The notes beneath the pieces were generated by a model. It did no database searches. It worked only from the letters and a program-made list of their open reading frames with translations, and was not told the DNA's origin. Below are positions 4,939 through 25,363 of a DNA stretch of 35,559 nt, piece after piece (within the stretch, counting starts at the first letter, position 1; the number at the start of each line of letters is the position of its first letter). The DNA is from Chthonomonadaceae bacterium (GTDB lineage: Bacteria > Armatimonadota > Chthonomonadetes > Chthonomonadales > Chthonomonadaceae), in assembly GCA_025054835.1 (NCBI GenBank), contig JANWZQ010000047.1, positions 1 to 35,559 on the forward strand. Reading direction: 5' to 3'. The translations under genes and the position numbers were made by a program.

Positions 4939-5476
4939 ATGCAATCACCCTTCAGTAAACAACGGATCAGGCGTTCACCGTCGTCGCCTTATCGGGAGAT
5001 TATTGACTAAGACTACGCGAAACATCAGTGTTGGGTTCCGAACCGCACTCCCGGGAGGCATCACTGCTAGGCTGCCCTTCAGGAACGCTCCATTCTATCC
5101 GACAATGAGGCGGTCCATCGCGAAGTGTGTTCTGGTTCATCATCGCGCAATCCGTTTCCTGCCCGCGCGGAGGCCTTTTTACCGTGCCGCCCCGGATCAG
5201 GAAGCAGGCGATAACCGCAGGTCCTCCCCGATGCAGGACACCGGGTGGTACGGTACCTCCGGACGGTCCTCCCGGGCAGGGAAGGAAATACGCGTTGTTG
5301 GCACAGATTGTGCACCCAAGGAAAACAGGTTCTGGCCCGCACTATCGCCCGGAACCCCCGGGGATATCCGTCCCGGGCAAGGCAATTATGACCGTGCAGA
5401 GCACACATCGCTAATGAGCGCGGCAGACGGAGGCGTCCCTTGAACGACGCTTCCAGTGATGAGGAGGTTTTGCAGG
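4939..5476. other. Long non-coding leader between divergent operons
   Basis: About 540 bases separate the start of the unknown/rhomboid operon (leftward) from the first EPS gene (rightward). Short open frames here have poor composition and no homology I can see, so I regard them as chance. Small stem-loops are visible: GCACA-GAT-TGTGC at 5301-5313, GTCCT/AGGAC around 5220-5239, and GCCCGG/CCGGGC near 5347-5378. I could not match a named riboswitch such as GEMM. It should hold two promoters and possibly a structured 5' UTR for the EPS operon. Confidence 0.5.
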
Positions 5477-7000
5477 ATGCGAGTCTACGGCTCATCGCCG
5501 CTGTACAACTATGTGGAGCTGGTCTTTCGCTCCAAAAGGCTGTTCATCGTTTCCATTGTGCTGACGACTCTGGTAGTCGCCACAATGGCCGCGATGCGCG
5601 CCGGAACGTACACGGCTCGAGGGATCGCGCTTCTTTCCGGTACTCCTACCACCCGGGAAGACAACACAGAAGACGCCGCGCAACGAGGCAGCGTGCGCTA
5701 CAAAATCAACGTGCTCAACATCGTCACGAAGGATCCGAACTTCTACAAGCAAGCCTTCAAAGACGCCGGTTTGAACGAAGGCATGAGCGATGAGGAGTTC
5801 GAGGAGTTCTGCAAAGAGGCCCGCAAATCGCTGAGCTTCGCCACAGGCGAAAACATGCTTCAGATCACCTGTACATGGAGGGACCCGCGCGCGGCCAACA
5901 TCGTCAAAGCGTTCTACGATGCATACGCGCGCCGTGTCTTTGAGGAAGAAACCGTCCTCAACCGCGTCACTACCAAGACGCTGGAAGACATGTACAAGGT
6001 GTACGTGGAGAAGGTCGCCGCTCTGGAGAAGAAACTGGCCAAATACCAGAAGGAGCACGTTGGCACGGACATGCTTCAGGCCACAACAGCTGCCAACCAG
6101 AAGTACCTGCAACAGGAGGAAGTGGTCAAAGGCCTGCGCTCCCAGTTGAACACCGCACGCACCATGCTGCAGGAAATCGAGCGGCAGCTGGCCAGCACTG
6201 AACGCATGATCGAAGACGTGCGTGAGATCGAGAGCATCACCCGGAGCCCGCAATTCCAGGCACAGATCAACCAGCTCTACACCCAGAAGAGCACACTGGA
6301 AACCCAGCTGGAAGACCTGCGCAAGACCAAGACCGAAGAGCATCCTCTGGTCAAGCAGGCTGTGGCCGCCCTCGAACAGGTTCAGGAACGCATCAAGAGC
6401 CTGGAAAATATGACCAGGTCCAGCAAGCCACAACCCGGTAACGAGGTCAGCCGTCGCATGGCGCTCAATCCCCAGTGGCTGATGCTGGACAGCAAACGCT
6501 CTGAACTGGACATTCAGGTACAGGACCTGGAGATGCGACTGGCCAACGCGATCAAGGAGCGAGACGAAGCGCTGCGCCGGGCACAGACCATGCCGGAAGA
6601 ACTGCTCAAATACAAAACCCTGACGGATAACCTGCCGCTCTACACCTCCGTCAAGCAGAACCTGAGCGCCAAGCTGGAGCAAGCCCGCATCGATGAGTTC
6701 CGCAACGAAAAGATGAGCCTCTCCCAGATGAAAATGGTGGTGGAACCGATCGCCGAGCCAGAAGACGTGCGCAAGAGCATGCTCTTCTACGCCGCCGGTC
6801 CCATCCTCGGGCTGGTTGTCGCGTTTGCGTTCTCGCTGCTGGCCGAAACACTGGATCACTCGCTCCGCACCCCGGTAGAGGTCGAAAAGTACCTGGGCAA
6901 GCCCGTGCTCGCGGTGCTGCCTCGCATGGATACACCGAAGGGAACACGGCCGGTCCTGCCCGGCGGAGACAGCAACAGTCCACCGGTGCTACCGTCATAA
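5477..7000 (+). CDS. Polysaccharide co-polymerase (Wzz/GNVR chain-length determinant)
   Basis: This 507-residue inner-membrane protein controls length and export of an exopolysaccharide. The Wzz layout is plain: a membrane helix at about residues 21-41, a long extracytoplasmic coiled coil (about 150-400, with heptad-rich stretches such as EKVAALEKKLAKYQ), and a second membrane helix near residues 440-462 followed by the typical tail (ETLDHSLRTPVEVEKYLGKPVLAVLP). The cytoplasmic tail ends in a Pro-rich segment. It is not fused to a kinase; a separate CpsD-like ATPase gene follows, the split arrangement of Firmicutes CapA/CapB. The ATG at 5477 is chosen because AGGAGG lies nine bases before it; an in-frame GTG at 5456 lies upstream of that site. 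Confidence 0.92.
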   Translation: MRVYGSSPLYNYVELVFRSKRLFIVSIVLTTLVVATMAAMRAGTYTARGIALLSGTPTTREDNTEDAAQRGSVRYKINVLNIVTKDPNFYKQAFKDAGLNEGMSDEEFEEFCKEARKSLSFATGENMLQITCTWRDPRAANIVKAFYDAYARRVFEEETVLNRVTTKTLEDMYKVYVEKVAALEKKLAKYQKEHVGTDMLQATTAANQKYLQQEEVVKGLRSQLNTARTMLQEIERQLASTERMIEDVREIESITRSPQFQAQINQLYTQKSTLETQLEDLRKTKTEEHPLVKQAVAALEQVQERIKSLENMTRSSKPQPGNEVSRRMALNPQWLMLDSKRSELDIQVQDLEMRLANAIKERDEALRRAQTMPEELLKYKTLTDNLPLYTSVKQNLSAKLEQARIDEFRNEKMSLSQMKMVVEPIAEPEDVRKSMLFYAAGPILGLVVAFAFSLLAETLDHSLRTPVEVEKYLGKPVLAVLPRMDTPKGTRPVLPGGDSNSPPVLPS

Positions 7001-7024: not shown

Positions 7025-7084
7025 CCGGTCCGGAAGGCATCCGGGAAGCAGCCCGCACTGACTCCGGCAGACCTTCCGGACCGG
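7025..7084. repeat. Perfect 13-bp inverted repeat between co-polymerase and ATPase genes
   Basis: CCGGTCCGGAAGG at 7025-7037 is exactly complementary to CCTTCCGGACCGG at 7072-7084, with 34 bases between. In RNA this would make a long stable stem. It ends four bases before the AGGAG of the next gene (7115) and begins 24 bases after the co-polymerase stop. There is no U-run, so it is not a classical terminator. It may tune the ratio of the two proteins, stabilise the upstream mRNA or bind a protein (inference). Confidence 0.7.
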
Positions 7085-7114
7085 AACAGGAGTAACAAGG
7101 AACGGAATCGCAGT

Positions 7115-7837
7115 ATGGCTGACAAGACCCAGATCCAACGTGGAGGGATGCTGTCCCGCTTCCGTGGCAACGGTTCCACCAATGGCCACAGTCGGAACGG
7201 GGACGGACGGATCCTGATCCCGGAAGAGTACGCCCGACTCCACGCCGACATCGAGCGTGCCTCCAGCCCATCCCGCTGCTTCGTGGTTGGCGTGACGAGC
7301 GCAGTGTATGGCGAGGGCAAAACGACGGTCGCGATGAACCTTGCCGGTACCATCGCACAGAACTCCACGCAGCGCGTGATCCTCGTAGATTGCAACCTGC
7401 GCAACTGGGACCTGCAGATCCGGCTCAATCTGCCCTCCTGCCTCGGCCTGGTAGATGTCCTGGAAGGGGGCGAGGACGATCTGACGAATGTGATCCAGAA
7501 GACCGAGCTGGAAAATTTCACGATCCTGCCCGCAGGCCGCGCCGCCGCCAATCCGGCCCGTCTGGCGCGTTCTCCACGCCTCACCGAGGTGATGGAGTCC
7601 CTGCGCATGACCAACGACTTCATGGTCGTGGACATGGCACCGGTTCTGCCCGTAGCCGATACCCGGGTGCTTGCCCGCTCTATGGATGGCATCGTTATGG
7701 TCGTGCGCGCAGGAGTGACCCCGCGAGAGATCGTGGCACGCGCCATCGACGCAGTCGGCAATGATCGGGTGCTGGGCGTGGTGCTCAACGGCACCGAAAC
7801 CGCCATGCCGAAGTGGCTCCAGCGCTATTTCTCATAA
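7115..7837 (+). CDS. CpsD/CapB-like P-loop ATPase of the BY-kinase family, atypical
   Basis: This 240-residue cytoplasmic ATPase partners the preceding co-polymerase in chain-length control. The Walker A motif is GVTSAVYGEGKTT (residues 59-71), the Walker A' is VILVDCNLR (88-96) and the Walker B is FMVVDMAP (169-176). Two hallmarks of active bacterial tyrosine kinases are missing: the second Asp of the A' motif (D-x-D-x-R) is Asn94, and the C-terminus has a single Tyr (Tyr238) instead of a tyrosine cluster. It may therefore work as an ATPase switch rather than an autophosphorylating kinase (inference). The N-terminal 30 residues are Gly/Asn-rich and probably flexible. Ribosome-site-like AGGAG and AAGGAA stretches precede the ATG. 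The GT2 gene starts nine bases after its stop. Confidence 0.88.
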   Translation: MADKTQIQRGGMLSRFRGNGSTNGHSRNGDGRILIPEEYARLHADIERASSPSRCFVVGVTSAVYGEGKTTVAMNLAGTIAQNSTQRVILVDCNLRNWDLQIRLNLPSCLGLVDVLEGGEDDLTNVIQKTELENFTILPAGRAAANPARLARSPRLTEVMESLRMTNDFMVVDMAPVLPVADTRVLARSMDGIVMVVRAGVTPREIVARAIDAVGNDRVLGVVLNGTETAMPKWLQRYFS

Positions 7838-7846
7838 GGCCCGAAG

Positions 7847-9187
7847 ATGTTTCTGCAGATACCGGTGCCGGGAGTGGTCAGGTCCGTTTTTGTCTCTCCT
7901 GCGGAACTGGCCTTCGTTCTGATTCTGCTCCCGTTGACGGCGTTCTTCGGCCTGTGCGCACTCTACCTGTGGCGCCTCCTGCTGGCCGCAATGGCCGTCA
8001 GGAAACGCCTGTACACCGTACCACCGAGTGAGATGACCGGCGGCCCTGTGTCTCCGTTGCCGCGTTTCGTCCTGCTGATCCCGGCGCACAACGAAGAACT
8101 GCTTCTGGGAGCAGCCCTCGACTCGTTGCAACAGCTGGACTACCCGCGCGATGCCTGCACCATTGTGGTGATCGCAGACAATTGCACCGACCAGACAGCA
8201 CGTATCGCTCGAGAGCACGGCGCCATTGCTCTCGAGCGCTTCGATACAGAAAAGATAGGCAAGGGCTACGCTCTGGAGTGGGCTCTGCACTTCCTTCTGA
8301 ACCCTGCCGATAATAGTGTATCCACCGCAGTGTTGCATGCATTTGATGCGGTAGTGATACTGGATGCAGACACGCAGGTCTCGCCGAACCTGCTCGCCGC
8401 CTTTGCCCGGGGTCTTCAGGCCGGCGAACAGGTGATGCAGGCACATTACGACGTGCTCAACGTCCACGAGAGCTGGCGTACGCGCCTGATGGCCTGCGCT
8501 CTGGCACTGGCTCATGTCGTCAAGCCGCTGGGGCGGGAACGTCTGGGGCTTTCCGACGGTCTAAAAGGCAACGGCATGTGTTTCTCCCGTGCTGTCGTGC
8601 AGTCTGTTCCCTGGTCTGGAGAGTCGATCACCGAAGATATCGAGTACACACTGCGCCTGTGCCGTGCCGGATACCGGGTCGCATTCCTGCCGGAAGCTCG
8701 CGTGCAGGCACAGATGCCAGCAACGGGCGCACAGGCGGTCAGCCAGCGCAAACGGTGGGAAGGGGGGCGCTACCGCCTGCTGTTCACCGTGGTTCCGGAC
8801 CTTCTCCGGGAAGGGTTGCGCCGCAGAAGTCGTATCCTGTGCGACCGGGCGATGGAGCTCATCATCCCGCCTTTTGCGGAGATGTTCGCCGTACCTCTTG
8901 CGCTGCTGGCGATCTGTCTGGCAGTCGCCGGGACGTGCCGGTGGCCCTGGGCATGGGGGTTGACGTGGGCATGGGCGGTCATTCTGGCCCTGCAGGCCGG
9001 TTACCTGATCGCCGGTCTGTGGGTGGCACGCGTGCCCGCACAGGTCGCTTTCTCGCTGCTGTACGCACCGGCCTACATCGTCTGGAAGCTGGGAGTGTAC
9101 CTGGTTATGGCGTTAACGCGCTCGGCCGGAGGTTGGAAACGTACGGAAAGACATCAGTTGAGCAACAACCCGTCCTCCCGCTCTTGA
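7847..9187 (+). CDS. Membrane glycosyltransferase family 2, EpsO-like
   Basis: This 446-residue GT2 enzyme has membrane helices at the N-terminus (about 18-50) and three or four at the C-terminus (about 335-430). The cytoplasmic GT-A domain starts at FVLLIPAHNEE (75-84), has the nucleotide/metal motif LDADT (172-176), the acceptor-side TED (262-264) and QRKRW (300-304). The D, DxD, TED, QxxRW set is that of membrane-bound beta-glycan synthases and of the EpsO-like group of exopolysaccharide transferases. It probably adds a beta-linked sugar from a nucleotide sugar during EPS synthesis; sugar and linkage are not readable. It lies nine bases after the ATPase gene and is clearly in the same operon. 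Confidence 0.9.
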   Translation: MFLQIPVPGVVRSVFVSPAELAFVLILLPLTAFFGLCALYLWRLLLAAMAVRKRLYTVPPSEMTGGPVSPLPRFVLLIPAHNEELLLGAALDSLQQLDYPRDACTIVVIADNCTDQTARIAREHGAIALERFDTEKIGKGYALEWALHFLLNPADNSVSTAVLHAFDAVVILDADTQVSPNLLAAFARGLQAGEQVMQAHYDVLNVHESWRTRLMACALALAHVVKPLGRERLGLSDGLKGNGMCFSRAVVQSVPWSGESITEDIEYTLRLCRAGYRVAFLPEARVQAQMPATGAQAVSQRKRWEGGRYRLLFTVVPDLLREGLRRRSRILCDRAMELIIPPFAEMFAVPLALLAICLAVAGTCRWPWAWGLTWAWAVILALQAGYLIAGLWVARVPAQVAFSLLYAPAYIVWKLGVYLVMALTRSAGGWKRTERHQLSNNPSSRS

Positions 9188-9330
9188 TCCCGGCGAAAGG
9201 GAACAGGAGGTCATGTGCATCGGGCCCGACAGATGACATCGAAAACACTGCGCAAAACAGCATGCTTTTGAGTCCGGGCTCTGCGCCGGGCAATGCCCGG
9301 TAAAGCGTAAGAACAGCAATCAAGACGCCT

Positions 9331-10926
9331 ATGCGGAATACAGTTGGGATCCTTGGCGTTCCTATCGACAAATTGAACATGGAAGAAGCCCTGGAGCGCA
9401 TGGAGTACTTCATCGCCACGGGCCGCTTCCACCAGGTAGCGACGGCCAACACTAACTTTCTGGTGAACGCCCTTTTCGACCCGGAGCTACGCCACATCCT
9501 GCGTGTGGCCGACATGGTGGTACCGGACGGCATGCTGGTAGTACGCGCCGCCGGAGTGCTCCGCTCGCATCTGGAAGAGCGCGTTACAGGCGCCGATATT
9601 GTCCCCCGGTTGGCCCGGATCGCTGCGTTGAAAGGCTATCGCATCTTCATGCTGGGCGGCAAGCCTGAGCATGCACAACGTGCCCGCGAACGGCTGGTGG
9701 AAACCTACCCCGGCCTCAACATCGTCGGGTGTCTCTCGCCGCATCTGAAATCTATTCTGGACACGGAAACCAACGAAGCCATCCTCGCGGAGATTGAGGC
9801 CACAAAGCCGCACATCCTGCTGGTTGCGTTCGGCAACCCCAAGCAGGAAAAGTGGATCTATCTCCATCGTGATCGACTGGCTCACGTACCGGTCTGTATT
9901 GGAGTCGGAGGCACATTTGACTTCATCTCAGGAGCCGTGCCTCGCGCCCCGGCATGGATGCAGGAAATCGGCCTCGAGTTCTTCTGGCGCTTCATGCACG
10001 ACCCGGTCCGACTGGGCAAGCGCTACGCGCACGATTTCTGGCACTTCCTGCCCGGGCTCCTGCAACAGTACCGCGCCATGCGCGTTCGCCCCAGCACGGA
10101 CCCGTCGGAGGTCTTCGCCACTCCTGTGGTGGAGGGCAGCGTGATCCTGACCATCCAGGGGCACTTTGATAGCGCGCTCTCGGAACAATTTGCCACGCTG
10201 GCCGAACAGGCCATTCGCGCGGAAAAGCACCTGATCCTGGAGTTCCGCCCGGGCACCACGTTCGATGCGCATGCGCTTGGCAAACTATTCAACCTGCCCA
10301 AACGCGCCGCATTCAAGCAATGCCGGGTCTATCTGGTCACGCCACCTGCGGATGTGTATCGTCTGCTGCAGAAGAGTCGGCTGGACGCCGACCTGTTCCG
10401 CGCGTTCCGCACGGTCTCCTCTATCACGGAGGCACTCCGAAGCGATGGCGAGGACAAGCCCTGGGAGATGGACTGCCAGCACGAACGCACCATCGTCACT
10501 CTGCACGAACATACCGGCCTGAGCCACTCCACGCTGGTGCGCATGATCGCAGCCTGTCTGGATCTGCTGAAGCATGGGGCCTCCATCGACCTGGATGTAC
10601 GCAACATCGCGCATATTGACTCCTTCCTCCTGCTCACGCTACGTCAGCTGCAGGAGGCTGCACGGCAGGCAGAAAGCGCAGAAGTTACCGAACATCCCCG
10701 TCTGCGTGTCGCGCCGAGCGAAGCGCTGCAGCAACGCCTGATTCAGGAGAACCTGATCCGGGAGCTGGTGCTGATTTCGGGAGATCAACTGGGTTACCAC
10801 AACGGCATGGCGGGTGCTACGACGCCCCGGGAACCTGTCCTCCCTGCAGTAAATGCAGAGAGCAGCACGGGGATCACGACACCGGCCAGCGAGAAGAAAG
10901 ACGCGGGTCCGGTCGTTCTGTACTGA
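9331..10926 (+). CDS. WecG/TagA/CpsF glycosyltransferase fused to two STAS-like domains
   Basis: Residues 1-245 are a complete GT26 WecG/TagA domain. It has TANTNFL (38-44), the DG with the probable catalytic Asp66 (VVPDGMLVV), GADIVPRL (87-94), FGNPKQEKW (167-175), and GTFDFISGAVPRAP followed by GLEFFWRFMHDP. This family moves N-acetylmannosamine-type sugars onto lipid-linked acceptors at the membrane. Family members are usually about 250 residues long; this one has 531. Residues 265-370 and 385-483 each have STAS order (beta strand, strand, helix, strand, helix) but lack the phosphorylatable Ser: the DSSG position reads FDAHAL in the first and IDSFLL in the second. The last 45 residues are Pro/Thr-rich. 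An in-frame stop shortly upstream fixes ATG 9331 as the first ATG, yet it lacks a ribosome site. The 143-base gap before it contains CCGGGC-AAT-GCCCGG at 9286-9300. Confidence 0.9.
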   Translation: MRNTVGILGVPIDKLNMEEALERMEYFIATGRFHQVATANTNFLVNALFDPELRHILRVADMVVPDGMLVVRAAGVLRSHLEERVTGADIVPRLARIAALKGYRIFMLGGKPEHAQRARERLVETYPGLNIVGCLSPHLKSILDTETNEAILAEIEATKPHILLVAFGNPKQEKWIYLHRDRLAHVPVCIGVGGTFDFISGAVPRAPAWMQEIGLEFFWRFMHDPVRLGKRYAHDFWHFLPGLLQQYRAMRVRPSTDPSEVFATPVVEGSVILTIQGHFDSALSEQFATLAEQAIRAEKHLILEFRPGTTFDAHALGKLFNLPKRAAFKQCRVYLVTPPADVYRLLQKSRLDADLFRAFRTVSSITEALRSDGEDKPWEMDCQHERTIVTLHEHTGLSHSTLVRMIAACLDLLKHGASIDLDVRNIAHIDSFLLLTLRQLQEAARQAESAEVTEHPRLRVAPSEALQQRLIQENLIRELVLISGDQLGYHNGMAGATTPREPVLPAVNAESSTGITTPASEKKDAGPVVLY

Positions 10927-10980
10927 CCCCATCACCTGTCAGAGGTTATTGTCCGTGCGACCGGCATGCGGGAAAACACC

Positions 10981-11115
10981 ATGAAGTTTGAACTACAGAT
11001 CCTGTTTCTGTTTCTGGTCATTGGCTTGCTTATCAAGCGTATCGACTGGCGCGGGCAGTTCTTCCTCTTTCTGTTTCTGTGCACCTGGATCTACTTCAAC
11101 TGGAGGCGGGGGTAG
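10981..11115 (+). CDS. Small two-helix membrane protein (44 residues)
   Basis: An open frame from ATG 10981 to TAG 11115 encodes 44 residues: MKFELQ, a hydrophobic helix (about residues 7-18), a short polar loop KRIDWRGQ, a second hydrophobic helix (about 27-40) and a basic end WRRG. It fits the gap between the WecG-STAS gene and the acyltransferase and is in the same direction. Its last codons GGAGGCGGGGG look like the ribosome site for the next gene, whose ATG comes eight bases after this stop. I do not recognise a family. Its position suggests a small accessory subunit of the EPS membrane machinery, but this is inference from place and topology alone. Confidence 0.6.
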   Translation: MKFELQILFLFLVIGLLIKRIDWRGQFFLFLFLCTWIYFNWRRG

Positions 11116-11123
11116 ATCGGGCC

Positions 11124-11744
11124 ATGCTGGAGGAAACCCGTTCTGCAGAACACCTGCCCGCAGCAGAGAGGGCGCCTGCAACGCCACCTCTGCCGGGCAG
11201 GATTGCGCAGGTCTGGAAGTCCGAAACAGAAGGCGTGCACCTGCGGGTGTTGCTGGCAAGCCGGCTGGCTGGCCTCCTGCCACACTTCGGTCTGAGCCGG
11301 CTGCGCACCGCGCTCTATCGTCTCTGTGGCGTACGGATCGGCCCGCGCTCTCTGATCCTGGGAGCCATGGAGCTTGCAGGACCCGGCCCTATCCAGTCCC
11401 GCCTGACAATCGGGGCCGACTCGCAGATCACCGCACCACTCTATGCTGATCTCTGCGACACTATCACCATCGGAGACCGAGTGTTCATCGGACACCACGC
11501 GGTCCTCATCACTACCAATCATGAGATCGGCCCTCACTGGCAACGGTGCGGCGGATGGAGGAGCGCCCCGATCCGTATCGAGGATGGGGCCTGGCTGGGC
11601 GCGCGTGTCACTGTGCTACCCGGTGTCACCATCGGAAAGGGCGCGGTCGTTGCCGCAGGTGCGGTCGTCACCCGGGATGTTCCCCCTGACACGCTTGTCG
11701 GGGGCGTTCCTGCCAGAGTCCTCCGTCAGCTGGAAACCGGGTGA
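11124..11744 (+). CDS. Left-handed beta-helix acyltransferase (hexapeptide repeat, WcaF/maltose acetyltransferase-like)
   Basis: This 206-residue enzyme most likely O-acetylates the exopolysaccharide or its precursor using acetyl-CoA. After a helical N-terminus (about 1-75), hexapeptide repeats follow: VRIGPRS, LTIGADSQI, ITIGDRVFIGHHAVL, the catalytic-His loop TTNHEIGPH, IRIEDGAWLGARVTVLPGVTIGKGAVVAAGAVVTRDVPPDTLVGGVPARV. The ending VGGVPARVL is typical for the family. A GTG at 11079 would add 15 residues but lies inside the small membrane protein; ATG 11124 follows that gene's stop and has a GGAGG-type site, so it is preferred. It forms a tight operon with its neighbours on the left. Confidence 0.88.
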   Translation: MLEETRSAEHLPAAERAPATPPLPGRIAQVWKSETEGVHLRVLLASRLAGLLPHFGLSRLRTALYRLCGVRIGPRSLILGAMELAGPGPIQSRLTIGADSQITAPLYADLCDTITIGDRVFIGHHAVLITTNHEIGPHWQRCGGWRSAPIRIEDGAWLGARVTVLPGVTIGKGAVVAAGAVVTRDVPPDTLVGGVPARVLRQLETG

Positions 11745-11814
11745 CATCCGGTCTCGCACCGGCTAACGTCCCCTCTACGCCACAACGTTCCCGCTCTCCT
11801 GCACCTCCACGCAG

Positions 11815-11915
11815 CAAAAACAGAATTTACAGATCCGCACATACATAATCAAAAATTAGCACAAATTTAATACCGGGTTAAACCACACAGGTCCGATCCG
11901 ATGGTACCCTGTGTG
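11815..11915 (+). promoter_or_regulatory. AT-rich promoter region and leader hairpin before the pilin-like gene
   Basis: Bases about 11815-11880 are sharply AT-rich against a GC-rich background, including TTTACA at 11826-11831 and several A/T runs, though I cannot fit a good -35/-10 pair. Just after it, CACACAGG (11884-11891) pairs with CCTGTGTG (11908-11915) around a 16-base loop. The stretch probably carries a separate promoter for the pilin-like gene, with a hairpin in its 5' leader. Confidence 0.4.
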
Positions 11916-11970
11916 CCGGATGCTCTGTCCTGCTGGGCCCCTCAGGACATGGCTGGAAAGGAGACGAACC

Positions 11971-12933
11971 ATGAGCACACGCACGTCGAGACGCGTGAAA
12001 CGTTCGTTGCACGGTTTCACTCTGATCGAGCTTCTGGTTGTTATCGCAATTGTTGCCATTCTGGCGGCCATCCTGTTTCCGGTATTCGCGCAGGCACGGG
12101 AGAAAGCGCGACAGGCCTCCTGCCTCTCCAACGTCCGGCAGATCACGCTGGCGAACATCCTGTATCGTCAGGACTTTGACGAGACCGTTGCGTTCAACCG
12201 CACCTGCTCTAATCCGGGCAGCCTCCCGTGTCTGCCGGGATATGCGGCGATGGGATGGATTGACCTGCTCCGCCCCTATGTCAAGAACTACGGCATCTTC
12301 AAGTGCCCTTCGGACCCCACCAGGCCAGTCCCGATCCCGCCGACCGTTACCCAGTACTTCGATGGCTCCCCGGTAACCGATCCACAGCAGGGTTTCGTCT
12401 GGGCTGCTATCACAGGAGGAAGACAGCAGGGTGGAGAGAACCGGTGCTCCTACGCGCGCAACAACAATCTGGCCAACAACGGTAACTCCACGGCTACCGA
12501 CGCGATGATCCAGTATCCCGCCACGACCATTCTGGTGTACGATTTCGCCCCCAACACGGGCTCCGGGGCCATTGGCTACTGGGAGCGCTCCTTCGGCAGC
12601 TCGTGGAGCATCATCCGCTACCCCCACATTGTTCCGGATCCGGGCACCTGCACCACGTGGAACCGCTACCCGGGTGAGAACGCGACCACACAGAACAACC
12701 GCGCCAACTTCATCTTCGCGCTTCAGGCAGACACGCCCGACCTGTACGCCATGGAGGCCGCTCGCCCGTCCTCCACACGGCATAGCGAGGGAGCCAACTA
12801 CGGCTTCTGGGATGGACACGCTAAATGGTTCCGCCCGGAACGGGTTAACGGGCAGTGTGGCGGCCGGCCGCCCGGTTTCCGTGGCGTGGTAGAACCCGGT
12901 AACAACGGGCAGGACCCGGACTTCCGTATCTGA
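11971..12933 (+). CDS. Type II secretion/pilin-like protein with H-X9-DG domain (DUF1559 type)
   Basis: This 320-residue protein carries a class III signal: basic leader, cleavage between Gly15 and Phe16 in [14 protein letters not shown], and Glu at position +5. The long hydrophobic helix runs on into [16 protein letters not shown], a signature seen over and over in Armatimonadota. The C-terminal H-X9-DG motif is His271 to Asp281-Gly282 ([12 protein letters not shown]). Such proteins are probably processed by prepilin peptidase and form or decorate surface pseudopilus-like structures; they are multiplied in these genomes without known individual roles. ATG 11971 follows AAAGGAG at proper distance; the frame is open for 60 bases upstream but that part is not needed. 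It sits inside the EPS cluster, before a secreted glucanase, and may help surface attachment (inference). Confidence 0.92.
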
Positions 12934-12965
12934 TCCCCCATATTGCACGGGCCCTCAGGAACAGC

Positions 12966-13003
12966 GGCCACAGGAGAGCAGATCCGGTTGCTCCCCTGTG
13001 GCC
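12966..13003 (+). terminator. Strong stem-loop after the pilin-like gene
   Basis: GGCCACAGG (12966-12974) pairs exactly with CCTGTGGCC (12995-13003). Inside, after one mismatch, GAGCA pairs with TGCTC. It starts 33 bases after the pilin-like stop. No U-run follows, so it may end transcription weakly or protect the mRNA 3' end. Confidence 0.45.
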
Positions 13004-13193
13004 TGCGGTCGCTCTCCTATGGTTCGCACGCACGAACACACTCCCCGCTCCGTTCCCATGGAAAAAGAAGCGAACCCGGGGTAGGAAACAGGTGCTTTTC
13101 TGACGAAAATGTACAGGATGGATTCCTGTGCAGAAGCCTGACCCGGAAAGCGCGCTGCGACAGCTCGCACGGGTCCGATCAGGAGCCAGTGCT

Positions 13194-15377
13194 ATGTCCG
13201 GAATAAGCAACGGAATACGCGGAGTTCTCGCCTGGGGAGGCGCGCTGTGTGGCCTCCTGCTGATTGCCCTGCTGTCACGCCAGACACCGCTTCAGGCCGT
13301 GGCGGCTGAAACGGAGGCTGCACAGGAGGACCTGATCATCTTTCAGGAGAAACTCGCTCCCGGGTGGCAGGACTGGTCGTGGACCAATCGCATGCTCGGC
13401 TTCACGGGAGTACGCCTGGGTAAATTGCCTTCAATCATGATGGTCCCGGAAGGGTGGAAGGGGCTGTTTCTGCACCACCCGACTTTCTCCACCCGGGGCT
13501 ACCGTGCGCTCACCTTCTGGATCCACGGAGGTACCACCGGGGGGCAACGCCTGAACGTATGTGCAGTAGGCCCCAACAACCAGTTCGGTAAGCCCGTCCC
13601 CGTGTCCGATTTCCTGATCGGCCGCACCATTCCCGCCGGTAAGTTTACGCTCTGCACCATTCCCCTGGAACGCCTGAATGCGGCCAACGCACAGATCTCC
13701 GGTTTCTGCTTCCAGGACGGTAGTGGGAGATCTCAGGAGGCCGTCTACCTGGCCGATATCCGGCTATCCGCACCGCCACAACAACGTTCTGCCGGGGGTC
13801 CCATCCGGGTCATCGTGCATCCCGGTCAACGTATCGGCCCGATCAGTCCCTACATCTACGGCATGGCCACGCCCACCGCAGAGCACTTCCGGGAACTCCG
13901 CCTGAAGCTCTGGCGCTGGGGCGGCAACCCGAACACCCGTTACAACTGGGAAAAGGGCAACTGCTGGAACGCCGCGCGAGACTGGTACTTCCGCAACGGC
14001 AACTACGGCAACACATCCCCGCAGGACCGGCAACCCTCTGGAGTCGCAGACAAGGCGATTGCGGCGGGCCGCGCGGCAGGAGCCGATGCATATATCACGG
14101 TGCCGACCATGGGATGGGTAGCCCGGGACGATAACAACGCCACGGCCTCGGTCGGTGTTCCGGATCAGAGCGGGCCTCCTGTCGCGCCAGGCTCCGAGGC
14201 GATTGCCGGGTACGACCCTACCGAGAACCGTCGGCGCGTCTCCGTACGTTCTCTGCCACGCAAAGGTCGTCCCTTTGCGGACCCACCCGACCTGACGGAT
14301 GACGTCGTCTATCAGGATGAGTGGATCTACCACCTGACGCGCAAGTTTGGCAGGGCCAGCGAGGGAGGCGTGCGCTTCTACGCCATGGACAACGAGCCGG
14401 ATCTCTGGGATGTGACCCACACCGATATGCATCCGGTGCGGCCGGGCTACGATGAAATCCTGCGGCAGTTTCTGGACTATGCGAACGCGGTCAAGGACGT
14501 CGATCCCTCGGCACAGATCGGTGGCCCTGTCTCATGGGGATGGACCGGGTATTTCTTCTCCCCTCTGGACCGGGGCAACGATAACTACCGCACGCACGCC
14601 GACCGGAAGGCGCACGGCGACGTCCCCTTCCTCCCCTGGTTCCTGCAACAGGTTGCTGCGCACGACCGGAAGAAAGGGCGACGCACTCTTGATATTCTGG
14701 ACGTGCACTACTATCCGCAGGCCAGTGGCGTCTACAGTGGAAGCACCGACCCGCAGACCAACGCGCTCCGCCTGCGCAGCGTACGCTCGCTCTGGGACCC
14801 GAACTACACAGACGAGTCCTGGATTGGCACGGCGGTGCAGCTGATCCCGCGGCTCAAGCAGTGGGTTAGCCGCTACTATCCCGGCACAAAAATCGGGATC
14901 ATGGAGTGGAACTGGGGCGCCGGACACACGCTCAATGGCGGTCTGGCGGTCGCAGAGGTACTGGGCGTCTTCGGCAGAGAGCAGCTGGACATGGCCTGCT
15001 ACTGGGCAATCCCCGGCGCTGGCACTCCAGCCTTCTTCGCTTTCAAAATGTACCGTAACGCAGACGACCGCGGGAACGGGTTCGGCGACGTCGCCGTGCA
15101 GGCCTCCTCCAGTGCACCCGACCGGATCTCCTGTTACGGCAGCATCGACGCAAAGACCGGGGCGGCCCGCATCCTGCTGATCAACAAAATGCCCGCAACT
15201 GCCGCTCCAATTACACTGGAGATACAGGGCACTGGCGGAACCCGAACGCTGGAAGTCTACCGCTACAGTGGGGCCGATCTCAAGAAGATCGTACGATTAC
15301 CCGATCTTATCGTACCGGGCGGGAAGACGCAAATGGAACTACCCCCCTACTCCTTGACGCTTCTGAGACAGAAGTGA
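13194..15377 (+). CDS. Secreted glycoside hydrolase family 44 endoglucanase
   Basis: This 727-residue enzyme has a signal peptide (hydrophobic core GALCGLLLIALLS, probable cut after AVAA near residue 41). About 160 residues of beta-sandwich character follow (carbohydrate-binding-like, about 50-210), then a GH44 barrel (about 225-640) and a C-terminal beta domain (about 645-727). GH44 marks are LWRWGGNPNTRYNWE, the acid/base Glu401 in AMDNEPDLW and the nucleophile Glu571 in IMEWNWGAG. GH44 enzymes cut beta-1,4-glucans and xyloglucan by a retaining mechanism. ATG 13194 has AGGAG eight bases before it; a GTG at 13128 would add 22 residues before the signal peptide. It lies between the pilin-like gene and the O-antigen ligase, so it could trim the exopolysaccharide itself. 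Confidence 0.9.
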   Translation: MSGISNGIRGVLAWGGALCGLLLIALLSRQTPLQAVAAETEAAQEDLIIFQEKLAPGWQDWSWTNRMLGFTGVRLGKLPSIMMVPEGWKGLFLHHPTFSTRGYRALTFWIHGGTTGGQRLNVCAVGPNNQFGKPVPVSDFLIGRTIPAGKFTLCTIPLERLNAANAQISGFCFQDGSGRSQEAVYLADIRLSAPPQQRSAGGPIRVIVHPGQRIGPISPYIYGMATPTAEHFRELRLKLWRWGGNPNTRYNWEKGNCWNAARDWYFRNGNYGNTSPQDRQPSGVADKAIAAGRAAGADAYITVPTMGWVARDDNNATASVGVPDQSGPPVAPGSEAIAGYDPTENRRRVSVRSLPRKGRPFADPPDLTDDVVYQDEWIYHLTRKFGRASEGGVRFYAMDNEPDLWDVTHTDMHPVRPGYDEILRQFLDYANAVKDVDPSAQIGGPVSWGWTGYFFSPLDRGNDNYRTHADRKAHGDVPFLPWFLQQVAAHDRKKGRRTLDILDVHYYPQASGVYSGSTDPQTNALRLRSVRSLWDPNYTDESWIGTAVQLIPRLKQWVSRYYPGTKIGIMEWNWGAGHTLNGGLAVAEVLGVFGREQLDMACYWAIPGAGTPAFFAFKMYRNADDRGNGFGDVAVQASSSAPDRISCYGSIDAKTGAARILLINKMPATAAPITLEIQGTGGTRTLEVYRYSGADLKKIVRLPDLIVPGGKTQMELPPYSLTLLRQK

Positions 15378-15449
15378 CATTATTACAGAATTACAGAGCG
15401 ACATTCTGAGTCCCGATGGGACAGAACGCGAAAGGGATTGCGTGCGCGT

Positions 15450-17138
15450 ATGATCGAGACTTCCTATCGGCGAGTCGAACTGCTGGACAGTGTGGAGAGC
15501 TACCGCGAGCGGATCCGTGCTCGCTGGACCCGGATCTGGGGTCTCATGCTGGTAACCCTCGGCGCATCCATGGGGGCGATTATCGTGATCCGCTTCCTCG
15601 CGCCGAGCGCCCTGCTCTACTCCCCTCTGGTCGCTCTGGCCGTCCTGTTCGTGATGGCCGTTCCGGTGATCGTCTGGAACAATCCACGCGCCGGGCTCTA
15701 CCTGCTGACCCTGTTTGCCTGCATCTGCGTGCAATCCCCGGAACGGCGCCAGCGGGACCCGCTGGAGTGGCTCCCGTTCTACTGGAGCGGTAGCGTGATC
15801 TCCGAAAACTATATGGGCAACCCGAAGGCTCTGGACTTCATCAACTTCAACTACGCGGAGCTGGTCATGATCATGACTGTGCTCTTCTGGCTGACGCGCC
15901 AGATCACCCTGCGCGAGTTGAAGTTCTACCCGGGCGCGTTCTTCCCATGGTTGGCGCTGTTCGCCGTGTGGGTTTGCTGGGGCATGTTCCGCGGCCTGAC
16001 TACCGGCGGCAGTCTGGTCGTGGCGCTCTGGGAAATGCGCGCGCAGGCCTATTTCTTCATCGCCTACCTGATGGCGACCCATCTGGTCACGGAGCGCGGG
16101 CACGCGATCACTCTGCTCTGGATCATGCTCGTCGGCATCAGTATGAAGAGTTTCGTGGGCACAGCCAACTGGATCAAAAACCCGAACGTCACCCCGGATC
16201 AGGGGGTGCTGTCGCATGAAGACAGCCTGCTGATGAATCTGATCTTCCTGGGGGCGCTGGTGTTCTGGCTGGCCCGACAGGAACCCCAGTTGAAATGGGC
16301 CTTCCTGCTGATGATCCCTACCGCGCTGATCAGCAGCCTGGCCAACGGCCGCCGCGCCGGCATTGCTTCTTTCATCGTGGCCTTCCCGGCCGTGGTGATG
16401 CTCAGCGCCGTCCTCCTGAAGGAGCGACGCAAGGCACTGATCCGCTTCTCGGTCGCCTTCGGCCTTCTGACCGCGATCTACCTGCCCATCGCCTGGAACG
16501 GGCAGGGCGCGTGGGCGCTTCCCGCGCGCGCCATCCGATCGCGCACCTCGCCGGATGCGCGCGACGCGGCCTCCGACGCCTACCGGTATGCCGAAAACGC
16601 CAACCTGAAGCTGACCCGCGATACCTCGCCGTGGCTGGGGTACGGGTATGGCAAACCCTACATCGTGGCCCATACCCAGTGGGGACGCGTTGACCCGTTC
16701 GCCAACGTTCTGCCACACAACGGGATCTACTGGGTCTGGATGCGGCTGGGGCACCCCGGCTTCGTACTCTTCTGGATGTGCGTGGCCAATGTGCTCATCC
16801 AGGGTCCCATGCTGATGAAACGCGTGCAGGACCCGCGCCTCCAGGCCATCGGCATTCTCTCCATCGCCGCACTCCTGATGCTGATCATCTACGGAGAGTA
16901 CGACCTGAGCTTCGCCAATTATCGCCCCATGTGGCTCACGGGAACGCTGCTGGGCGTCCTGGCCGCTCTGCCCCGCATCGATGCCGGTCAGGAGGCCGCA
17001 AAGCAGACCGTGAGCAACACAGGAGACAGTCCGCCTCCCCCGGAACCACCCGAAGCACCGGATAGCACGCTGCCGCCCCGCAGGCGCCTGCCATGGCAGC
17101 GACAGATCCCCGGGTGGAGCCCCGGCACGGACTGGTAA
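15450..17138 (+). CDS. O-antigen ligase/polymerase-type membrane protein (Wzy_C)
   Basis: This 562-residue protein has about ten membrane helices. A large extracytoplasmic loop lies before the C-terminal helices, as in Wzy polymerases and WaaL ligases. The loop contains the WaaL-type signature H[NSQ]-x9-G-xx-[GTY]: His423-Asn424, then nine residues, then GHPG. Before it stand LGYGYGKPYIV and an Arg-rich stretch (RAIRSRTSPDARDA). It would polymerise or transfer lipid-linked glycan units outside the membrane. The last 50 residues are a Pro-rich, basic cytoplasmic tail. ATG 15450 is chosen; TTG 15438 also has an open frame. It is the last gene of the EPS cluster and converges with the GH42 gene, six bases apart. 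Confidence 0.87.
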   Translation: MIETSYRRVELLDSVESYRERIRARWTRIWGLMLVTLGASMGAIIVIRFLAPSALLYSPLVALAVLFVMAVPVIVWNNPRAGLYLLTLFACICVQSPERRQRDPLEWLPFYWSGSVISENYMGNPKALDFINFNYAELVMIMTVLFWLTRQITLRELKFYPGAFFPWLALFAVWVCWGMFRGLTTGGSLVVALWEMRAQAYFFIAYLMATHLVTERGHAITLLWIMLVGISMKSFVGTANWIKNPNVTPDQGVLSHEDSLLMNLIFLGALVFWLARQEPQLKWAFLLMIPTALISSLANGRRAGIASFIVAFPAVVMLSAVLLKERRKALIRFSVAFGLLTAIYLPIAWNGQGAWALPARAIRSRTSPDARDAASDAYRYAENANLKLTRDTSPWLGYGYGKPYIVAHTQWGRVDPFANVLPHNGIYWVWMRLGHPGFVLFWMCVANVLIQGPMLMKRVQDPRLQAIGILSIAALLMLIIYGEYDLSFANYRPMWLTGTLLGVLAALPRIDAGQEAAKQTVSNTGDSPPPPEPPEAPDSTLPPRRRLPWQRQIPGWSPGTDW

Positions 17139-24511: not shown

Positions 24512-25363
24512 ATGAAAATGAGCACACATCTTCGCATGACCCGGTGGATGCGCACTGGTGTTGCAGTACTGCTGGCAACCGTGCTGCTATTTGAAGGTCT
24601 CAGCGCTCTGGCGCAGCGCCGGGGTAGTTTCGGTGGTAGCTCTTTTGGTGGAGGGCGATCGTTCGGAGGCTCTTTTGGACGTTCCGGCGGGTCCTTCGGA
24701 GGCTCTTTCGGCAGTGGACGCTCGTTCGGAGGAGGGAGCTCTTTCGGCGGAGGAATGTTTGGTGGAAGCCGCTCCTCGGGCTCCTTCGGCAGCGGGCGAT
24801 CGTTCGGAGGCTCCTTCGGCGGCAGTCGATCCAGCGGATCGTTCGGCGGGTCCTTCGGCAGCAGACGCTCAAACGATGCGGGCAGCTCCTTCGGGGGCTC
24901 CTTCGGCAGCGGGCGATCGTTCGGAGGCTCCTTCGGTAGTGGCGCACCGATGCCCGGACGCAGCTTCGGAAGCAGCGGTTCCTTCGGACGCAGCGGGTCG
25001 TTCGGCAGTGTGCGCACCGCAACGCGCCCACCGGCCTACTACGGCCAGCGCCCGATCAGCTCGCGCACCTACTACATCAACGGCACCCCCTACATCGGCC
25101 ACTCGTTCAGCTTCTGGAGCGGCTTCAGTCTGGGTTGGGCGCTGGGAAGCCCGCCATGGTACTTCTACACACCGTTCTCCCCCTACTTCTACTTCCATCG
25201 CCCGGTGCTCTACAACGGCGAACTGTACCCGGGCGGATTCAACTGGCTGAACTTCTTCATCGGCCTGCTGTTTTTCGCGTTCCTCATCTGGGTCATCTGG
25301 ATGGTGTTCCGCAATCTCTCCGGAGGCGGACGGCGTAAGATCCGTTACACAACGTACAACTGA
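24512..25363 (+). CDS. FG/SFGG-repeat secreted or membrane protein
   Basis: This 283-residue protein has a signal peptide (TGVAVLLATVLLFEGLSALA, cut near residue 35). A 130-residue low-complexity zone (about 36-168) follows, built of SFGG, SFGS and RSFGG units, with 20 SFG motifs and nearly no acidic residues. Next is an aromatic stretch (about 170-240; RPPAYYGQRP, SRTYYINGTPYIGHSF, PPWYFYTPFSPYFYFHRP) and a C-terminal membrane helix (FFIGLLFFAFLIWVIWMVF, about 247-265) with a basic tail. Similar Gly/Ser-rich proteins with a C-terminal helix exist in cyanobacteria (DUF1517-like), but I cannot claim homology. It is probably anchored with a disordered, sticky extracellular or periplasmic part. 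AGGATG precedes the ATG. Confidence 0.85.
   Translation: MKMSTHLRMTRWMRTGVAVLLATVLLFEGLSALAQRRGSFGGSSFGGGRSFGGSFGRSGGSFGGSFGSGRSFGGGSSFGGGMFGGSRSSGSFGSGRSFGGSFGGSRSSGSFGGSFGSRRSNDAGSSFGGSFGSGRSFGGSFGSGAPMPGRSFGSSGSFGRSGSFGSVRTATRPPAYYGQRPISSRTYYINGTPYIGHSFSFWSGFSLGWALGSPPWYFYTPFSPYFYFHRPVLYNGELYPGGFNWLNFFIGLLFFAFLIWVIWMVFRNLSGGGRRKIRYTTYN
24778..24936 (+). repeat. Two exact 42-base direct repeats inside the FG-repeat gene
   Basis: Bases 24778-24819 and 24895-24936 are identical over 42 bases and start 117 bases (39 codons) apart, so they are in frame. Each encodes a piece around SFGSGRSFGGSFG. Identity at silent sites points to a recent duplication or gene conversion rather than only protein-level selection. 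Confidence 0.9.

Follow-up and report, generated by a model that had tools for sequence, protein, structure and literature searches.

Why would an enzyme of polysaccharide biosynthesis carry two STAS domains, the fold of the RsbV/SpoIIAA antagonists, in its own chain? The question is raised by a gene on contig JANWZQ010000047.1 (GCA_025054835.1) of a Chthonomonadaceae bacterium, whose forward strand of 35,559 nt is the window analysed here (Table 1); its own genome is labelled G000, and L- and G-numbers denote loci and genomes in the comparisons. An earlier note on this DNA had described a WecG/TagA glycosyltransferase with two degenerate STAS domains, and had suggested that these tie an EPS glycosyltransferase to a kinase partner switch or serve as a docking or scaffolding element. 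The reading that we prefer, at about even confidence, is that the protein is an EPS glycosyltransferase in working order, and that its two STAS domains form a docking module, inherited from a switch-controlled lineage and now unphosphorylatable and probably constitutive.

Table 1. Features of the fusion gene and its EPS neighbours in the window
Feature	Coordinates	Strand	Basis
Wzz-like chain-length/export protein, two TM ends, coiled coil	5456..7000	+	named by sequence pattern; ORF
CpsD/BY-kinase-like ATPase	7115..7837	+	AAA_31 8.6e-9
Family 2 glycosyltransferase (GT2)	7847..9187	+	PF13641 5.1e-27
WecG/TagA-STAS-STAS fusion gene, 531 aa	9331..10926	+	intact ORF; Pfam; AlphaFold pLDDT 89.2
WecG/TagA/CpsF (GT26) catalytic domain with C-terminal membrane appendage, residues 1-250	9331..10080	+	Pfam; phmmer; Foldseek
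STAS domain 1 (STAS1), residues 260-372	10108..10446	+	PF01740; homologue matches; alignment
His314 codon, aligned with the SpoIIAA phosphorylatable Ser	10270..10272	+	alignment, 87 fusions
STAS domain 2 (STAS2), residues 376-487	10456..10791	+	homologue matches; hhalign to STAS1; modelled STAS topology
Disordered C-terminal tail, residues 492-531	10804..10923	+	pLDDT <50
Hexapeptide acyltransferase	11079..11744	+	PF00132 4.2e-15
O-antigen ligase/Wzy-like polymerase (Wzy_C)	15438..17138	+	PF04932 4.1e-8

A glycosyltransferase fused to two STAS domains in an EPS locus

The protein is a WecG/TagA glycosyltransferase followed by two STAS domains and a disordered tail, as had been read from the sequence; Pfam and hhalign profiles, 40 homologues, AlphaFold and Foldseek all agree on this architecture and thereby confirm it. 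The unusual length of the chain also held up, the gene being a complete ORF with an ATG start, and the repeat limits proposed earlier (265-370 and 385-483) lie near those that we find. A frame error or chimaera is ruled out by the identical architecture in many independent assemblies. In the AlphaFold model of the full-length fusion (pTM 0.87) the final 40 residues are disordered.

The Pfam families of the neighbouring genes place the fusion gene within an EPS (polysaccharide biosynthesis) locus, in the order Wzz-like, CpsD-like, GT2, WecG-STAS-STAS, hexapeptide acyltransferase, pilin-like DUF1559, GH44 and Wzy_C. No specific Pfam family was found for the Wzz-like protein, and relatives of the GT2 (cluster c1) occur near WecG-STAS in 50 loci. 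Elsewhere in the window, an ECF sigma factor and zf-HC2 anti-sigma gene pair lies upstream of the EPS cluster (1436-2958), and a protein with a long Gly/Ser/Phe-rich repeat (FGGS) followed by a hydrophobic C-terminus is encoded at 24512-25363.

The enzyme part matches Glyco_tran_WecG (PF03808) over residues 60-232 (3.9e-59, 199.7 bits against a cut-off of 27.4) and shares its fold, catalytic residues and membrane appendage with Thermoanaerobacter italicus TagA (5wb4, 7mpk), which is found by phmmer (7mpk, 5.9e-42) and by Foldseek (target-normalised TM 0.96). In the alignment to 7mpk, T38, D66, R220 and R227 correspond to T37, D65, R214 and R221, which belong to the active site of TagA (PMC6493773), and TagA R224 pairs with K230, adjoining an invariant R231. 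Because the TagA active-site residues are matched, the enzyme part looks active, a prediction made from sequence. The same genome encodes a second WecG that is unfused and of ordinary size, about 256 aa.

TagA stops at about 244 aa, whereas the window protein adds two STAS domains beyond the appendage, attached straight after it. In TagA, inactive dimers have a disordered appendage, which becomes folded at the membrane and so completes the active site (PMC6493773). Partner binding at the STAS domains could, we infer, influence this folding step.

Both repeats are STAS domains that lack the phosphorylatable serine

STAS1 is matched directly by PF01740 (residues 264-363, 8.2e-11, 42.1 bits against a cut-off of 22.6), and the corresponding stretch matches STAS in 40/40 homologues. 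The second repeat of the window protein on its own gives a weak match (STAS_2, 0.015), yet the corresponding stretches match STAS_2 in 36 and STAS in 34 of the 40 homologues (best 1.5e-15). Chance similarity is therefore ruled out for STAS2, its homologues being clear STAS domains. Aligned profile to profile, the repeats match one another (hhalign 99.6%, 1.3e-24), and both match PDB STAS proteins including SpoIIAA, RsbV and TM1442 (best 8.1e-22 for STAS1, 3.2e-18 for STAS2), as well as MlaB and SLC26 STAS domains. The structure check advised for this region likewise returned a STAS fold: the tandem alone was modelled at pLDDT 90.7 and pTM 0.66, and Foldseek matched STAS proteins at a target-normalised TM of about 0.8. 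The Foldseek matches are pooled over domains, so that the fold search alone is no proof of STAS2, which is proved by the profiles.

The alignment confirms the observation that both repeats lack the serine of SpoIIAA. The phosphosite position is His314 in STAS1 (D-A-H-A-L-G) and Phe432 in STAS2 (D-S-F-L-L-L), and neither STAS domain of the window protein has a phosphorylatable Ser/Thr after the conserved Asp. STAS1 does keep D312 and G317, both invariant across alignment A2. The curated RsbV/SpoIIAA families TIGR00377 and TIGR02886 score 22.6 and 21.0 bits, below their cut-offs of 53.5 and 114.8. The window protein thus shares with the RsbV/SpoIIAA antagonists the STAS fold of its two repeats and differs from them in being fused to an enzyme and in having lost the phosphosite, whereas its Chloroflexota relatives retain a DS[S/T] site and adjoin a kinase and a PP2C.

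Some STAS domains bind nucleotides or acyl carrier protein. Allosteric tuning of the enzyme by the pair, in response to a small ligand or lipid (a nucleotide, acyl carrier protein or a lipid-linked sugar), is accordingly a further reading, and Foldseek did match the YchM-ACP structure 3ny7; but no ligand-binding residues were identified in the window protein, and we regard this as very improbable.

Distribution, conservation and a lineage-specific helix

The search for further WecG-STAS fusions that had been proposed was productive: scanning genomes and searching for relatives brought up about 85, in three phyla, namely Chthonomonadales (Armatimonadota), Chloroflexota and Acidobacteriota, the Armatimonadota including one family outside Chthonomonadales. 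Chains with two STAS domains (about 470-560 aa) occur in Chloroflexota and most Chthonomonadales, and single-STAS chains (about 365-430 aa) in Acidobacteriota and a few Armatimonadota. In a tree of the glycosyltransferase part, whose unfused rows were drawn from Armatimonadota only, a branch with 100% SH-aLRT separates the fused WecGs from the unfused Armatimonadota WecG, and Chthonomonadales group with Acidobacteriota (95). Three loci from other Armatimonadota families (L021, L024, L030) encode WecG behind a polytopic membrane domain, WecA/TagO-type-like by pattern, in ORFs of 600-630 aa.

Might the STAS domains of the window lineage simply be functionless leftovers that are drifting? At matched glycosyltransferase identity of 55-65%, STAS1 and STAS2 are 28% and 21% identical among Chthonomonadales against 35% and 36% in Chloroflexota, conservation of STAS2 across Chthonomonadales is low (mean 23% identity), and single-STAS versions exist within this order (L012, L040, L043, L063). 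However, the tandem persists in genera that have diverged, D312 and G317 do not vary, and the helix after the STAS1 site carries a conserved N-L-x-K-R-A pattern specific to the Chthonomonadales lineage (NLPKRA in the window protein; N321 in 12/17 and K324-R325 in 12/17 sequences, some of them closely related). Given this helix, the pair does not appear to be simply decaying, and drift is improbable in our estimate. The K-R pair is also found in 13/18 Chloroflexota STAS-only proteins, described below. On the equivalent helix of Vibrio fischeri SypA, K67 and R68 are essential and have been proposed to bind an unknown partner (PMC4517449, PMC8256260); the pair stands at +10/+11 from the site in the window protein and at +11/+12 in SypA, and the likeness is only a lead.

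Partner-switch genes in the operon of Chloroflexota relatives

We defined the contents of the Chloroflexota operon from gene clusters across loci and from Pfam on L061 and L067. In Chloroflexus islandicus (L061), a Bac_transf gene (7044-7982) precedes WecG-STAS-STAS (8001-9518), followed by NTP_transferase+Hexapep+Bac_transf (9518-11215), a STAS-only gene (11298-11639), GAF+SpoIIE (11655-13175), HATPase_c_2 (13175-13603) and Response_reg (13579-14016). Both a kinase and a PP2C were found in 25 of the 29 Chloroflexota loci whose downstream sequence extends for 4.5 kb or more; the full downstream set is missing in L046, L049, L075 and L081. None of the operon's genes was recognised as a sigma factor. 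The triple fusion of NTP-transferase, hexapeptide and sugar transferase directly after WecG-STAS recurs in the Chloroflexota equivalents and at L166:6482-8080, and in Candidatus Chloroploca (L046, L049, 3719-7631) WecG-STAS lies outside the usual operon, with an FtsZ-family gene and an amidase nearby.

The STAS1 site is Ser/Thr in 33/39 Chloroflexota, the STAS2 site is Ala in 33/38 of their two-STAS chains, and the STAS-only protein has Ser/Thr at the site in 17/18. Because the genes for the STAS-only protein, the SpoIIE-type PP2C and the HATPase_c_2 kinase adjoin the fusion gene, the proposed link between EPS glycosyltransferase and kinase switch is strongly suggested for these relatives. It lacks support in the window organism, where we found no linked genes, only weak genome-wide matches, and no phosphosites. 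Phosphosite and switch genes go together as one contrast between clades, unreplicated; a test on independent pairs yielded three pairs and no support, the independent changes being too few. Four Chloroflexota loci in this test (L042, L050, L066, L070) have the switch module and a STAS1 without Ser/Thr, which suggests that the real, or main, substrate of the kinase may be the STAS-only protein, with the fused STAS as a competing partner.

These data also bear on whether the STAS pair was ever a signalling element at all, or is purely structural, serving oligomerisation or membrane positioning as in MlaFEDB or SLC26. Such a role would suit the loss of both phosphosites in the window protein, the predominance of Ala at the Chloroflexota STAS2 site and the profile matches to MlaB and SLC26, but as an account of the whole family it leaves the operon's switch genes and the Ser/Thr of STAS1 in Chloroflexota hard to explain. 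We consider it unlikely, although the most serious of the alternatives to a docking module of switch-controlled ancestry.

Switch genes in Armatimonadota and in the window organism

Partner-switch genes are absent from the window. No kinase or PP2C gene lies beside the fusion gene in the Armatimonadota loci scanned, several of which have short flanks, or in 29 Acidobacteriota loci. The Armatimonadota STAS1 site is Ala, Glu, Gln, His or Gly, with Ser/Thr in 2/19 (both Ser). The search advised earlier, for co-occurring SpoIIAB/RsbW-type genes, found no typical ones in the genome: across G000, an assembly about 97% complete, family searches gave only eight weak matches to HATPase_c_2 (PF13581), the best being a STAS-HATPase fusion protein at 32.1 bits, and only two weak partial matches to SpoIIE (PF07228).

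Could the window enzyme still answer to an unlinked kinase? The candidate is a chain on contig 179 that combines STAS with HATPase_c_2 (L144:1360-2364), and binding does not require a phosphosite. Yet this protein reaches just 30-32 bits on HATPase_c_2, a SpoIIE-type phosphatase is limited to the two partial matches, and both STAS sites of the enzyme lack Ser/Thr, so that control of this kind seems improbable, if a shade less so than drift. The gene that follows the contig-179 candidate (L144:2458-3045) encodes a small protein that is DUF4325 STAS-like by pattern, and contig 26 of the same genome (L145:970-1812) encodes a STAS domain, its site without Ser, with a universal stress protein-like domain (by pattern).

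Related genomes are more varied. Strong PP2C/HATPase matches occur in large ORFs of three Chthonomonadales genomes (G006, G013, G015) despite a degenerate STAS1; G030, whose STAS1 (L043) keeps Ser, encodes elsewhere a PP2C-HATPase protein adjoining a STAS-like frame; and another Armatimonadota family (G045, L166) retains the gene order PGT, WecG-STAS, NTP-transferase/PGT, STAS-only. The gene pair of G030 and the gene order at L166 make it plausible that the operon is ancestral and was lost later; the opposite direction, a gain of the switch genes, is conceivable too. Near the G045 operon, L166:4428-5621 encodes a CBS protein with an HATPase-like C-terminus, RsbT-like by pattern.

A proposed mechanism

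From the domains, fold, catalytic residues, operon contents, Ser loss and weak kinase/PP2C matches, we infer a scheme in which catalysis, every binding event, phosphorylation and the effect on enzyme activity are conditional. The window enzyme would be a membrane-peripheral WecG/TagA-type transferase acting on a lipid-linked EPS precursor, to which it attaches a sugar, and its STAS pair directly follows the appendage that in TagA turns an inactive dimer into a membrane-bound active monomer. In Chloroflexota, the pair is most likely the output, or a competing partner, of the RsbV/RsbW/RsbU-like switch encoded in the same operon: the kinase would bind and phosphorylate STAS, the PP2C would reverse this, and STAS occupancy would change membrane engagement or enzyme activity. 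In the window lineage, whose locus has no switch genes and whose STAS1 has lost the phosphosite but keeps the N-L-x-K-R-A helix, constitutive docking is probable, with another EPS protein or the STAS pair itself as the partner. Of the two roles that the earlier note had offered, docking or scaffolding thus fits the window protein better than a kinase switch, given that switch genes were not found and the phosphosites are lost.

STAS domains and polysaccharide loci

A glycosyltransferase chain with a STAS domain has been mentioned before, and STAS control of a polysaccharide locus is known from SypA and SypE; the papers searched describe neither WecG-STAS fusions nor the Chloroflexota operon, nor EPS partner switching in Chloroflexus. 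SypA of V. fischeri is a STAS protein encoded in a polysaccharide locus and controlled by Ser phosphorylation with SypE, the unphosphorylated form being active, and its direct target is reported as unknown (PMC4517449, PMC8256260). The window protein resembles it in having STAS domains in an EPS locus. By contrast, SypA is a separate protein whereas these domains are a covalent part of a glycosyltransferase, and the serine that SypA control requires is absent from the window protein, its site being present in most Chloroflexota relatives. Anabaena all4160 also has a glycosyltransferase and a STAS domain in one chain and is linked to envelope polysaccharide; as described in PMC8256260, which cites it, its STAS domain is N-terminal, where that of WecG-STAS is C-terminal.

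What, then, might these fusions mean? It is a tentative proposal, held at a little under even confidence, that a kinase/phosphatase partner switch widespread in Chloroflexota acts directly on an early EPS glycosyltransferase via its built-in STAS domains, and that the switch-free versions of Armatimonadota and Acidobacteriota are derived. If this is true, partner switching would control an enzyme and not transcription, and the type of target on which SypA-like STAS proteins act would be suggested. WecG-STAS, together with the STAS, kinase and phosphatase genes of its operon, names a candidate target for the STAS regulators of polysaccharide loci, and in the Chthonomonadales fusions nature supplies a switch-free form with which to compare it.
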